64,000 bases of DNA, taken from positions 366,501-430,500 of the forward strand of contig JAIGNY010002782.1 in assembly GCA_020152595.1 (NCBI GenBank), read 5' to 3'. This DNA is from Chiridota heheva (taxonomy: Eukaryota > Echinodermata > Holothuroidea > Apodida > Chiridotidae). Position numbers and translations under genes: made by a program. This document shows, in pieces, positions 43,801-46,845 of the stretch. Under the pieces are notes generated by a model. That model was not told the origin of the DNA and did not search any database. It saw only the letters and a list, made by a program, of their open reading frames with translations. Within the stretch, counting starts at the first letter, position 1, and every line of letters starts with the position of its first letter.

Positions 43801-45816
43801 AGAACCCTATTTACAACCTGATTAGGGACCCCAATTTCTCCACCCTCTTTGATAGGACAAAAACCCTATTCCCTCCCTTCAGCTTACGCATCAAATCAGA
43901 CCGCCTCCAACTCGGCATTAATCCCGCCACTCTTGGCATCTTCTCATGGCCCATTTTTCTTCCCTGGGCCACCCCTCTCTTCTATCCACCTGGGCCGCTC
44001 CACTTATCAGAAAACCCAAACCCACCTAACCTCTTCATGAACCTCCACAATCAAATCAAATCCCAACTCTCAAAATATACCTCCATCTATACTGATGGCT
44101 CCAAGGAAGGCGACAAGACAGCTGCTGCTGCCGTCATTCAAGACAGTAGCAGGCTTTCCGACTACTCGTCCATCTTCTCGGTCGAGGCCAAGGCCATGCT
44201 CCTCACCCTCAACTTGATTGAGTACTCCCCGCTCAGCCACTTTGCCATCTCCTCCTACTCCAAGGCTGTCCTTATTTCTTTACTCAATCTTAAATGGATA
44301 ACCCCACATCATACCTCCTCCGTATATTCCTTTCGCCCTCCTCCCCCCCCCCCTCCCCTCCCTCTTGCAGGAAAAGTATTTTTTTTTCTGGATACCCAGC
44401 CATGTTGGCATCCCTGGTAATGACAGAGCTGATGCAACCGCTAAGCTTGCCCTAACCTTCCCCCTTCCACTCCATTTCCCAAAACCCTTTCTGACATCAA
44501 ACCGATTATTCGTGACCGCTAGCAAAGCTTATGGGACTCCCAAATTCCACGTCATCCAGCCCACATTCTGATCAAACCCACCATCAACAATCTCTATCCT
44601 GTCGACAACCTCTCTCGTGTCGACAACGTTCACATTACCCGACTTAGAATAAGTCACACCCACCTTACTCACTCCCACCTCCTCCTTATTGGCTCCCTCA
44701 CCCCTCTGCAACAATTTTCATAACACCCTCACAGTCCATCGCGTCCTCCTTGCTTTCCCCTGTACAACCTTCCTAGAGCTTCCCTTCGCTCCCCACAACT
44801 CAATTGCCGAGCTCATCCAGAAAAACCCTCCCGATAAAATTATCTCCTTCCTTCATCATGCTTCCCTCTACAACCATATTTAGTCTTCCTCTCCCACCAC
44901 CTCTCTCTACTTTTTTTTTTCACCCATGCACCTCCTCTCTCGATCCCAGCTTTCTGGCTTTTAGTTCCCGTGTTTCTCTCAATCTCCCCCTATTTTCTTT
45001 CCATCCTACCTCTAGAATGATCTAACCTTTCAGGCACAATTTGACCCTCGCTGCCGTAGTGCCGTTAAGCCCTCATCAAACAAACAAACTAAAACACACT
45101 AAACACATTAAACTTCCCTGAGGATTGCAGGAGAAGGATAACTCGATAATGCTTTCAATATTCTAGCAACAATCTTTCATCGAAATTAAAAACTATACAG
45201 ATTTTCAGTTTCTGAGAAATGATTTTCAACGACTACATCTTCATGCAACATACCATGGGAAATATCCCAATACGCTTAATGAAGTAATGGTATATTCTCA
45301 CCTTATCACATTATCATTTTTCGAACAAAGTATATTACTAATTTAGAGCTTTTCCCTAACAAATCTTCTTTAGAAAGGAGGGTAGGATAAAGGGAGGAAA
45401 GGGAGGGGGCGTTATAAAATACCGACTTTACTATTCCTGGTATTACCAATGCCACTTGTTATTTTCTGAAGGTCGAAGGCGTACACATTCCGAGAATTCA
45501 AGATGCCCACTCCGCCTACAGAGCATTCAGTGAATTGTGGAGTTATAACCATCGGTGCCACTTCAATCCCGTCGCCTCCACTCAAAACCAAGTAAGTGAC
45601 TGTGAGTCAAAACACAGTTACTGTCGCCATGACGATAAGGGGGAATGCGAATGGAATATAACTCCCGATTACATGAAGTGTTTTCAAAAAAGAGAAGAAA
45701 AGCTAGTTGTAACAAGAGAAAAGGACTGCCTAAACCTTTCGAAAAAGGGGCTGAGAAAGATATGCAGACATAAATTCAGGGAGACAAGGCTGAGACTAGA
45801 ACGGCAGTTAGGGTGA
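31729..45816 (+). CDS. TIMP/tensilin-like secreted protein (complete, 4 exons)
   Basis: Exons 31729-31855, 36904-37128, 37665-37819 and 45472-45816 join in frame to 283 residues. Residues 1-25 are a signal peptide; the mature protein starts [13 protein letters not shown], giving Cys1, Cys3 and Cys13 spaced as in tissue inhibitors of metalloproteinases. The N-terminal OB-fold (NTR-type) part continues with [13 protein letters not shown] and LCQSC. The C-terminal part has [19 protein letters not shown] and KCF, then a basic tail. TIMPs bind the zinc site of matrix metalloproteinases through the free Cys1 amino group. Tensilins are holothurian TIMP-like proteins that stiffen collagenous tissue. 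At 283 residues it is longer than vertebrate TIMPs (about 210-220). Position 2 is Asn rather than the usual Thr/Ser, so inhibitory activity is uncertain. Confidence 0.88.
32082..35565 (-). mobile_element. Defective hAT transposon with 8-bp target duplication
   Basis: Terminal repeats CAGTGGCGCAGCCA (left) and TGGCTACGCCACTG (right) are inverted copies with one mismatch. The flanks GGTCTATT (32074-32081) and GGTCTACT (35566-35573) match at 7 of 8 positions; an 8-bp duplication is the hAT hallmark. The minus strand carries transposase pieces (next entry). The interior has lost part of the transposase core, so it is non-autonomous. Confidence 0.9.
33623..35479 (-). pseudogene. hAT transposase remnant (TTF-type zinc finger class)
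   Basis: Fragments in order on the minus strand: a CxxC...H....H finger piece (35264-35479, [13 protein letters not shown]); a TTF-type domain (34671-35267) with [29 protein letters not shown]; a segment with [20 protein letters not shown] and ESSEGTNRG (34354-34674); then [10 protein letters not shown] ... [13 protein letters not shown] (34083-34367); and a helical C-terminal part (33623-33922). The catalytic core between the third and fourth pieces is largely missing and the frame breaks several times. Related proteins are ZMYM1-like and 'repressor of protein kinase inhibitor'-like hAT derivatives. Confidence 0.82.
36904..37128 (+). CDS. TIMP-like exon 2
   Basis: Acceptor TATCTAG, donor GTAAGT, phase 1 at both ends. 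The join gives FCNDQF followed by VLFVEIGKG, equivalent to the FCNADVVIRAK region of TIMPs, then [15 protein letters not shown] and the [17 protein letters not shown] segment (Cys in the position of TIMP Cys70). NVT is a possible glycosylation site. Confidence 0.9.
37665..37819 (+). CDS. TIMP-like exon 3
   Basis: Acceptor AACGTAG, donor GTAAGT, enters in phase 1 and ends in phase 0. It codes for [25 protein letters not shown] (Cys99-like), and [10 protein letters not shown] (the Cys124/Cys127-like pair at the domain border). Confidence 0.9.
37952..38570. repeat. (AT)n microsatellite, about 620 bp
   Basis: Almost pure TA dinucleotides with a few interruptions (AAATGTAG near 38087, ACATATATACATATAAA near 38148). 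It starts about 130 bases after the donor of exon 3. The YIYI-type frames through it are artefacts. Its true length may be misassembled. Confidence 0.98.
38606..39084. mobile_element. MITE with about 125-bp terminal inverted repeats
   Basis: The left arm 38606-38732 and right arm 38960-39084 are inverted copies (GAATTTTATTA, GTTAAAATCATGTTGATATA, AAGATTGCGCCA, TGTGATGTCATAAA). The loop of about 230 bases has no coding capacity. The element is in TIMP intron 3. Confidence 0.88.
39829..40910 (+). pseudogene. LINE ORF1 remnant (zinc-knuckle protein)
   Basis: The frame starts at an ATG at 39829 and shifts several times. Recognisable parts: [40 protein letters not shown], and near 40383 a CCHC-type set ([27 protein letters not shown]....H). 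ORF1 proteins of I-group LINEs bind the element RNA. Several frameshifts and an in-frame stop after NHPSF make it non-functional. Confidence 0.8.
41190..44560 (+). pseudogene. LINE ORF2 remnant (endonuclease, RT, RNase H)
   Basis: The endonuclease region starts IIQWNIRSL (41235), with GDIN and a stop near 41613, YVDLFICSP, and the catalytic GSDHYP at about 41833. The RT region (42294-43490) shows [52 protein letters not shown], a frameshift near 43110, and QDDFTIF where Y/F-x-DD is expected. RNase H (44037-44470) shows YTDGSK, a glutamate in VEAKAM, SYS where SDS is expected (catalytic Asp lost), and [20 protein letters not shown]. Multiple breaks, therefore dead. Confidence 0.87.
45472..45816 (+). 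CDS. TIMP-like exon 4: C-terminal domain
   Basis: Acceptor TCTGAAG, enters in phase 0, stop TGA at 45814-45816. It codes for [47 protein letters not shown] and a Lys/Arg-rich end ([22 protein letters not shown]). An internal GTAAGT at 45590 follows CAAAACCAA but using it would drop the conserved cysteines. The stop codon lies in the terminal repeat of an inserted element. Confidence 0.9.
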   Translation, partial: VEGVHIPRIQDAHSAYRAFSELWSYNHRCHFNPVASTQNQVSDCESKHSYCRHDDKGECEWNITPDYMKCFQKREEKLVVTREKDCLNLSKKGLRKICRHKFRETRLRLERQLG

Positions 45817-46800
45817 ACCCCTGAAAGGAGTCTTTCATGCTAATCCCTGCTTCCACGGTTTGACCATTGCGCAGTTCAGCAACCAGTCGACAGTTCAAAC
45901 ATACGAATCGCACACACATCTCAGCTGCTTACTATCTTCAATTCGGTCTATTTCAAGTATGCATTATGCGATCACCTACTGACTGACCGATCGTAAAGGA
46001 ATAAACAGTGCAATTTGAGATTAACTAAACTAACTGCTTAAGTTTTATTCATGATTTGATTAGGCCCTAACGTCTGAACGTTATTCGCCAGTACAGACAA
46101 TGGGTGAAAAAGAATAACACGAATGCCAATATATATTACACACAAGCCTGCAATGCAAACAGTCCAACGTACACTCTACGCACATGATGGCTGTAACTTA
46201 GCATTAGTTACGGTCAATAGGCCTACGTTAGAATACGTTCACTGTTCAGACAGAACATCACATACGAAAGTCACAAAGGAACTGATACTTCACTGCATTA
46301 AGATGATTTAATTGAACGCGTTCTCCAAGAGGCTACGTAAATAACAACACAACTTACGCGAAGAACAAATTTAATGTAAGAATGCATATGAAATAACCCT
46401 TTTAATTTGTAATTTATTGAACACTGACAATCGCAGTCAAAGAAGAAAAGTCAATGCTTAGTCAACACAACGCAGATGTTAGCACAGTACAGATTATTCG
46501 CAACAAACCTAAGCATTTCAAACATAGGTCATGCCATATATTGGCTCTTTTTTCAAATTCGGACTGGTAAACATATCAAAAGGTACTGGATAAAAGGTAG
46601 CTAACATGTTTCCCCATAATTCCATGTACCTCTCACACTTCAGCAAACGCCGTCGTAGTTCACAAAATGAATTTACTTGGTCACTCTGTACAAAGTGTAT
46701 GGGCGAAGGAAATTGCATGATGGGTAATGGCTGCCTCCATGGCCTAAAAAAACCCTCCTTCGAAGGGTTTTTATCGAGGACTAAAAGGAGGGGTTCACCC
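45811..46800. mobile_element. Putative TIR element inserted at the TIMP stop codon
   Basis: GGGTGAACCCCT at 45811-45822 is inverted at 46789-46800 (AGGGGTTCACCC). Outside it, AAGGCTGAGACTAGAAC occurs at 45786-45802 and 46802-46818. The duplicated 17 bases are the last codons of the TIMP gene. Eight bases lie between the left duplicate and the left TIR, one base on the right. The superfamily is unknown; 17 bp is long for a cut-and-paste target duplication. An ORF of 66 codons (46518-46718, minus) is inside; its family is not recognised. Confidence 0.65.
46000..46005 (+). promoter_or_regulatory. AATAAA inside the insertion
   Basis: An AATAAA 184 bases after the current TIMP stop. It could end the transcript within the inserted element. 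Confidence 0.35.
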
Positions 46801-46801
46801 G

Positions 46802-46845
46802 AAGGCTGAGACTAGAACAGGAAGGGTAAAGTGTAGATTAATAAA
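46802..46845 (+). pseudogene. Stranded original end of the TIMP gene
   Basis: After the insertion the reading continues in the gene's own frame: AGG CTG AGA CTA GAA, then CAG GAA GGG TAA at 46818-46829, followed 10 bases later by AATAAA (46840-46845). This looks like the ancestral last codons, stop and poly(A) signal, displaced about 1 kb downstream. Confidence 0.65.

Follow-up and report, generated by a model that had tools for sequence, protein, structure and literature searches.

A transposon end supplies the stop codon of a TIMP-like gene in Chiridota heheva, and its overlong flanking repeat may be a repair scar

The window analyzed here is a 64,000-nucleotide stretch of the holothuroid Chiridota heheva (assembly GCA_020152595.1, contig JAIGNY010002782.1, positions 366,501 to 430,500 of the forward strand), in which a TIMP-like gene on the plus strand carries a DNA transposon in its last codons. 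The gene comprises an upstream exon with the NTR-like part (36903 to 37127) and a second exon (37667 to 37819), both open frames with inferred borders, and a last coding exon, which in its present reading runs from an inferred acceptor at 45472 to 45816 and ends in the TGA of the element. Joined by hand, the three exons matched the Pfam family TIMP (PF00965) with an E value of 3.2e-07 and 30.7 bits, against a curated cut-off of 23.1. Searched singly against Pfam, the upstream exon gave an NTR match below the cut-off (E = 0.0013), and neither the second nor the last exon gave a match; five matches of the last exon alone to solved structures (best E = 0.064) were rejected as evidence.

Positions 45805 to 46803 (plus strand) are one copy of a young family of non-autonomous DNA transposons of about 1 kb. 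The copy is 999 base pairs (bp) long as present. Its left terminal inverted repeat, CAGTTAGGGTGAACCCCT (45805 to 45822, plus strand), is full-length with one substitution relative to the CAGTTC start of the family, while the right one, AGGGGTTCACCCGAA (46789 to 46803, minus strand), is short by the last three bases, CTG, of the GAACTG end of the family. A preliminary description of this DNA, made from the letters alone, had recognized 12-bp terminal inverted repeats; an inverted repeat is indeed present, but in the family it is 18 bp long, CAGTTCGGGTGAACCCCT, and the right end of this copy lacks CTG. The same description had placed the element between two copies of a 17-bp direct repeat, and we found this 17-mer, AAGGCTGAGACTAGAAC, at 45786 to 45802 and 46802 to 46818; the listing of its exact matches across the 1.1-Gb genome contains these two alone, both at the TIMP-like locus. 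Because its two initial A's are common to the target (CAA, then GG) and to the GAA tip of the element, the duplicated target proper is GGCTGAGACTAGAACGG on the left (17 bp, in frame, 45788 to 45804, plus strand) and GGCTGAGACTAGAACAGG on the right (18 bp, 46804 to 46821, plus strand), the latter joined to the trimmed tip through the 2-bp microhomology AA. The duplicated target thus adjoins the element on both sides, and its two copies differ by one A.

Read in the gene frame, the left terminal repeat gives CAG TTA GGG TGA, and the present protein ends in RLRLERQLG. Since this repeat reads CAG TT(A/C) GGG TGA in frame, the element supplies the stop of the gene, at 45814 to 45816 (plus strand), which confirms what had been proposed. 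The plus-strand signals pointed out earlier also lie where they were described: a TAA at 46827 to 46829, the native gene-end AATAAA at 46840 to 46845, and an AATAAA inside the element at 46000 to 46005. The last of these is a feature of the family, as its 11-base context occurs in 53 of the 57 other copies compared. The data also support the earlier view that the native gene end was shifted about 1 kb downstream with only the last few residues replaced, and the altered residues fall beyond the Pfam TIMP match. The frame before insertion is ambiguous because the target copies differ by one extra A. The preliminary description had given the old ending as CAG GAA GGG TAA (protein end RLRLEQEG), with the TAA named above as the possible former stop; this reading is possible, and the left copy offers an alternative, in which, if its AACGG is ancestral, the protein would have ended in RLRLERKGKV with a TAG at 46834 to 46836 (plus strand). 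The latter ending is mildly favored by an RLRLER motif near a paralogue, L073.

This paralogue (G000:C2732, about 441269 to 441445, minus strand) is a neighboring TIMP-like sequence with the RLRLER motif in C-terminal position; the motif is out of frame with the upstream exon of L073, a possible frameshift or further splice. Besides itself, the last-exon protein matched 12 places in the genome at E values of 1 or below, among them one in the window (about 62896 to 63156, minus strand), and contig G000:C2832 carries 8 of the 13 last-exon matches, an expanded TIMP-like cluster. The ends of the paralogues proved too diverged to settle the ancestral C terminus. When the genome was searched at the DNA level for a last-exon paralogue with an empty site, the locus itself was the sole match, and no empty allele of the TIMP site, that is, a single GGCTGAGACTAGAAC copy without the element, was seen in the one assembly.

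The other copies that the preliminary description had anticipated are abundant. The motif GGGTGAACCCCT was counted 241 + 229 times in the genome, against 21 + 41 for its reversed control, and together with 8 inner bases (a 20-bp core) it marked 387 ends, against none for the reversed control. The full 6-bp tip CAGTTC is present at 347 of the 387 core ends; among the other 40, 22 start without C, 3 start with C but not CA, and the remaining 15, not listed as a set, include the window left tip and L024 (labels in L and C are our own handles). Of 469 candidates obtained with the inner 990 bp as query, the 40 scored were the window copy and 39 others at 97 to 98% identity. Across 57 placements compared with the window copy (itself excluded), the median identity was 97.6% (range, 83.2 to 98.3); a second set of 57 placements includes the window under a slightly different flank filter. 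These placements are a nonrandom sample, made up of the pairs that come first in contig order, those that best match the window, and loci from the search for altered tips. No transposase, coding relative, or polymorphic copy of the family was seen among the copies read. A 2.1-kb copy (L120, on C860) was rejected as an autonomous one, as it is the element plus an insert of 1.1 kb in which stop-free stretches do not exceed 97 codons. In seven ends, the base after the 18-bp terminal repeat is A or T instead of the G or C of the family, and these are candidate relatives or a candidate autonomous partner; the only one read (L127, G000:C68:97000-97090) differs from the family in its interior, as judged by eye. 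At L090/L091 (G000:C2315, about 1023883 to 1025152), two element halves stand head to head in a palindrome that continues into flanking sequence and could be an inverted duplication or a fold-back of the assembly.

Comparison of the insertion sites revealed that the normal target duplication of the family is 5 bp. It is exact in all 41 of the placements with two intact tips among the 57, and by eye it also occurs in L006, L024, L085, L088, and L095, which have full-length tips with a change in or near a tip (the L095 duplicate has one mismatch). C2351 and C2271, of which small pieces were read, have point changes and likewise a duplication of 5 bp. L012 sits in a long interspersed nuclear element (LINE), of which an uninterrupted relative in the window near 41610 represents the empty site, with a 5-bp duplication (by eye). 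A 17-bp duplication was therefore rejected as the family rule, and the 17-bp repeat, for which the preliminary description had left the mechanism open, is not the target-site duplication of this family; so long a repeat is a trait of a minority of copies with a damaged tip.

To describe this minority, we set 48 full-length-tip sites (the 41, the five L sites, and the two C sites above) against 14 damaged-tip sites, namely the window, L044, L062, L084, L086, L087, L089, L092, L003, C2763, C1994, C2171, C898, and C2515; L092 (tip TAGTTC, no 5-bp duplicate) was classed as damaged by judgement, and C2914, C3157, and C2315 stand outside both groups. By hand tally, duplications of at least 13 bp (13 to 1109 bp) occur at 8 of the 14 damaged-tip sites and at none of the 48 others (Fisher p of about 9e-07). 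L062 lacks 3 bases of the right tip and has a 38-bp duplicate (100% identical), L044 lacks 10 bases of the right tip and has a 303-bp duplicate (100%), and L087 lacks 3 to 6 bases of the left tip and has a duplicate of about 394 bp (97%). At L089, 2 or 3 bases of the right tip and 2 of the left are missing beside a 14-bp duplicate, and L086, a diverged copy (86%) with both tips damaged, is complex, with 77 bp aligned at 96% and offset from the tip. The remaining two sites are arrays. C1994 reads flank-D-E-D-E-D-flank, with E the element and D a unit of 1109 bp; its damaged tip, CGTTC, lacks one base, or two with a filler, and the array was pieced together from one complete D, the ends of the two outer ones, and the tips of the elements. 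C2763 (L093/L094/L122, G000:C2763, about 569230 to 573856) reads E-D-E'-D-E' between 13-bp target copies; D measures about 502 bp, each inner left tip lacks 3 bases, and the last right end lacks about 27. Because this D does not resemble the outer flank, the history of C2763 is more complex than one repair.

The junctions share several traits. In the window, L062, L044, and L087, the tip opposite the damaged one is full-length and adjoins the duplicate. Microhomology at the new junction, counted by eye, is 2 bp in the window, 3 in L044, 3 in L089, and 0 in L062, and the junctions of L084 and C898 hold extra filler bases. A tip is short by exactly CAG/CTG at 5 of the 14 damaged sites (the window, L062, the C2763 inner left tips, L089 right, and L084 left), although microhomology makes the exact loss uncertain except at L062 and C2763; this three-base loss might reflect a recessed cut. 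The trimmed end opposite a full-length one, the 0 to 3 bp of microhomology, and the occasional filler argue for end-joining repair rather than strand transfer by a transposase, and the filler-bearing junctions of L084 and C898 suit such joining.

The account that we favor as the simplest, with a probability of about 0.5, takes the element family, its 5-bp rule, the trimmed tip, the abutting duplication, and the recurrence of this arrangement elsewhere as observed, and would link them by an order of events, a one-ended cut, copying from a template, and a loss of mobility. A non-autonomous cut-and-paste element would have inserted into the last codons of the TIMP-family gene with a normal 5-bp target duplication, and later a transposase from another element would have cut the right end only. 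The broken gene flank would then have been extended upstream by copying 17 to 18 bp of neighboring target, with either a homologue as the template or the sister, on which the 5-bp duplicate would have primed the copying; an empty homologue as template would give one element between repeats, while an element-bearing sister would give arrays. Finally, microhomology end-joining would have attached the extended flank to the element end trimmed by 3 nt, producing a target copy, an immobile element, and a second target copy. Duplication of nearby DNA through repair has been reported in the human genome (PMC2671141). A broader proposal, which we put forward only tentatively, is that the overlong duplications might be a fossil record of failed one-ended excisions, in which a cut with a 3-nt overhang was followed by copying of 13 to 1109 bp of flank, locking the element and, in the TIMP-like gene, fixing its stop.

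Several observations weigh against the favored account. Six of the 14 damaged sites (L003, L092, L084, C2515, C2171, and C898) have no long duplication: none was found in the flanks of L092 and L084 as fetched, within 401 bp on each side of C2515, or within about 300 to 400 bp on each side of C2171, where the 5 bp are present. The trim lengths vary from 2 to about 27 (perhaps 1 in C1994), both tips are altered in L086, L084, C898, C2171, and L089, and the two target copies in the window differ by one base. The first element of the C2763 array, which is outside the 57 and was counted within the single C2763 damaged site, has the tips CAGTTC/GAACTG but is flanked by AATAT on the left and GAAAA on the right, with no matching 5 bp; intact tips with nonmatching flanks are not predicted by simple sister copying, against which this element counts. 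Moreover, the one assembly showed no empty allele, polymorphic copy, or transposase, which leaves room for a single aberrant insertion event.

An identical final structure would arise in one step by one-ended insertion, in which the transposase joined one end, and a second break in the target took up the other, already nibbled end through microhomology repair. Single-ended reactions of piggyBac have been reported in cells and described by a 'lariat' model with one end transferred, with the caution of those authors that truly one-ended events are difficult to prove (PMC3952818), and the microhomology and filler at our junctions also accord with this course. We nevertheless consider it unlikely, as duplications of 303 to 1109 bp would require a second copy of the target (from a sister or by re-synthesis), beyond what a staggered break provides, and as the arrays of C2763 and C1994, with more than one element copy per site, are easier to obtain after insertion. 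These arrays also look similar to products of hybrid-element or reversed-ends transposition between sister chromatids, as in P elements and maize Ac/Ds, and the intact tips with nonmatching flanks of the first C2763 element are as expected from such a reaction; for maize dhAT, tandem duplications ranging from 116 to 1262 bp have been reported, and one case has a terminal repeat short by 12 bp (PMC3744419). Such reactions, however, join intact ends by strand transfer, whereas the new junctions of the window, L062, L044, L087, and L089 lack terminal bases (C1994 may be short by one base only), and all copies with two intact tips among the 57 placements keep 5 bp, so that we regard this origin of the flanking duplications as distinctly improbable.

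A target duplication of variable length could instead be intrinsic to the transposase, as in IS481EU, where about 4, 15, or 25 bp occur in one family (PMC10045372). Our values of 13, 14, and 17/18 bp come close to the 15-bp class, and the two families share duplications of about 15 bp alongside copies with about 4 to 5 bp; but in IS481EU long duplications are normal regardless of end damage, whereas here they are restricted to damaged-tip sites (8 of 14 against 0 of 48), their lengths are not discrete and continue to 38, 303, 394, and 1109 bp, and the family ends in CAGTTC...GAACTG (CA...TG) rather than TG...CA. This reading is very improbable. The direct repeats might also be older than the element, which would have replaced, or fallen between, the copies of a short tandem duplication at the gene end, a history that the sequence of this one site would by itself allow; since duplicates of 38, 303, and 394 bp abut other damaged-tip elements in the same way, a coincidence would be needed at several sites, and we find the idea hardly credible.

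Elsewhere around the gene, the last TIMP-like intron (window 40000 to 45000) holds a degraded LINE-like stretch with reverse-transcriptase and RNase H-like frames (by eye), and a long, nearly pure (AT)n tract lies in intronic sequence at 37950 to 38560. Downstream, 46953 to 47132 is a dispersed repeat that by eye resembles a short interspersed nuclear element (SINE) derived from transfer RNA; it is 94 to 95% identical in L031 and L033, and a relative of it is the insertion site of the element copy L003 (by eye).

As for classification, the CA...TG ends, the 18-bp inverted repeats, the fixed 5-bp duplication, the length of about 1 kb, the lack of a long open frame, and the near-identical copies resemble non-autonomous elements of hAT5 or CMCT/Transib. 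An autonomous partner would encode a hAT transposase in hAT5 and a RAG1/Transib-like transposase in CMCT/Transib; our family is known here from non-autonomous copies. hAT5 is defined by a 5-bp target duplication, which all 41 of our placements with both tips intact show, and CMCT/Transib has CA...TG termini 'in most cases' with target duplications of 2 to 5 bp (PMC12730594), which agrees with our CAGTTC...GAACTG and 5 bp; as both fit, either superfamily may be the correct one. In its long duplications, the family shares with maize Ac/Ds and dhAT, where reversed-ends transposition leaves direct duplications of the flank that are 100 bp to 1.2 kb long (PMC3744419), the position beside one damaged or nonmatching terminus. 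The maize cases, however, have two element copies, one heading each duplicate, whereas in 6 of our 8 long cases the two target copies enclose a single element, and its tip at the new junction is trimmed. Flanking duplications are known also from Drosophila P elements, where they come about through hybrid element insertion, and the retained element with a duplicated flank is similar; that reaction is expected to leave intact ends, unlike our family, which has one trimmed end, mostly with microhomology at the join. In the literature covered, most subscription papers being outside this scope, we recognized no report of damaged tips combined with long duplications in one family.

The length of the target duplication is a standard key in transposon classification. 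The present family, with its 5-bp rule and its minority of damaged-tip copies at 13 to 1109 bp, shows that a long repeat need not be the signature of the element and can instead be a scar left by repair. If the one-ended-cut model is true, genomes would keep a readable record of how often transposases fail, and such a failure could freeze an insertion that alters the end of a gene. For the TIMP-like gene, the terminal repeat doubling as a stop codon changes only the last residues and the 3' untranslated region.

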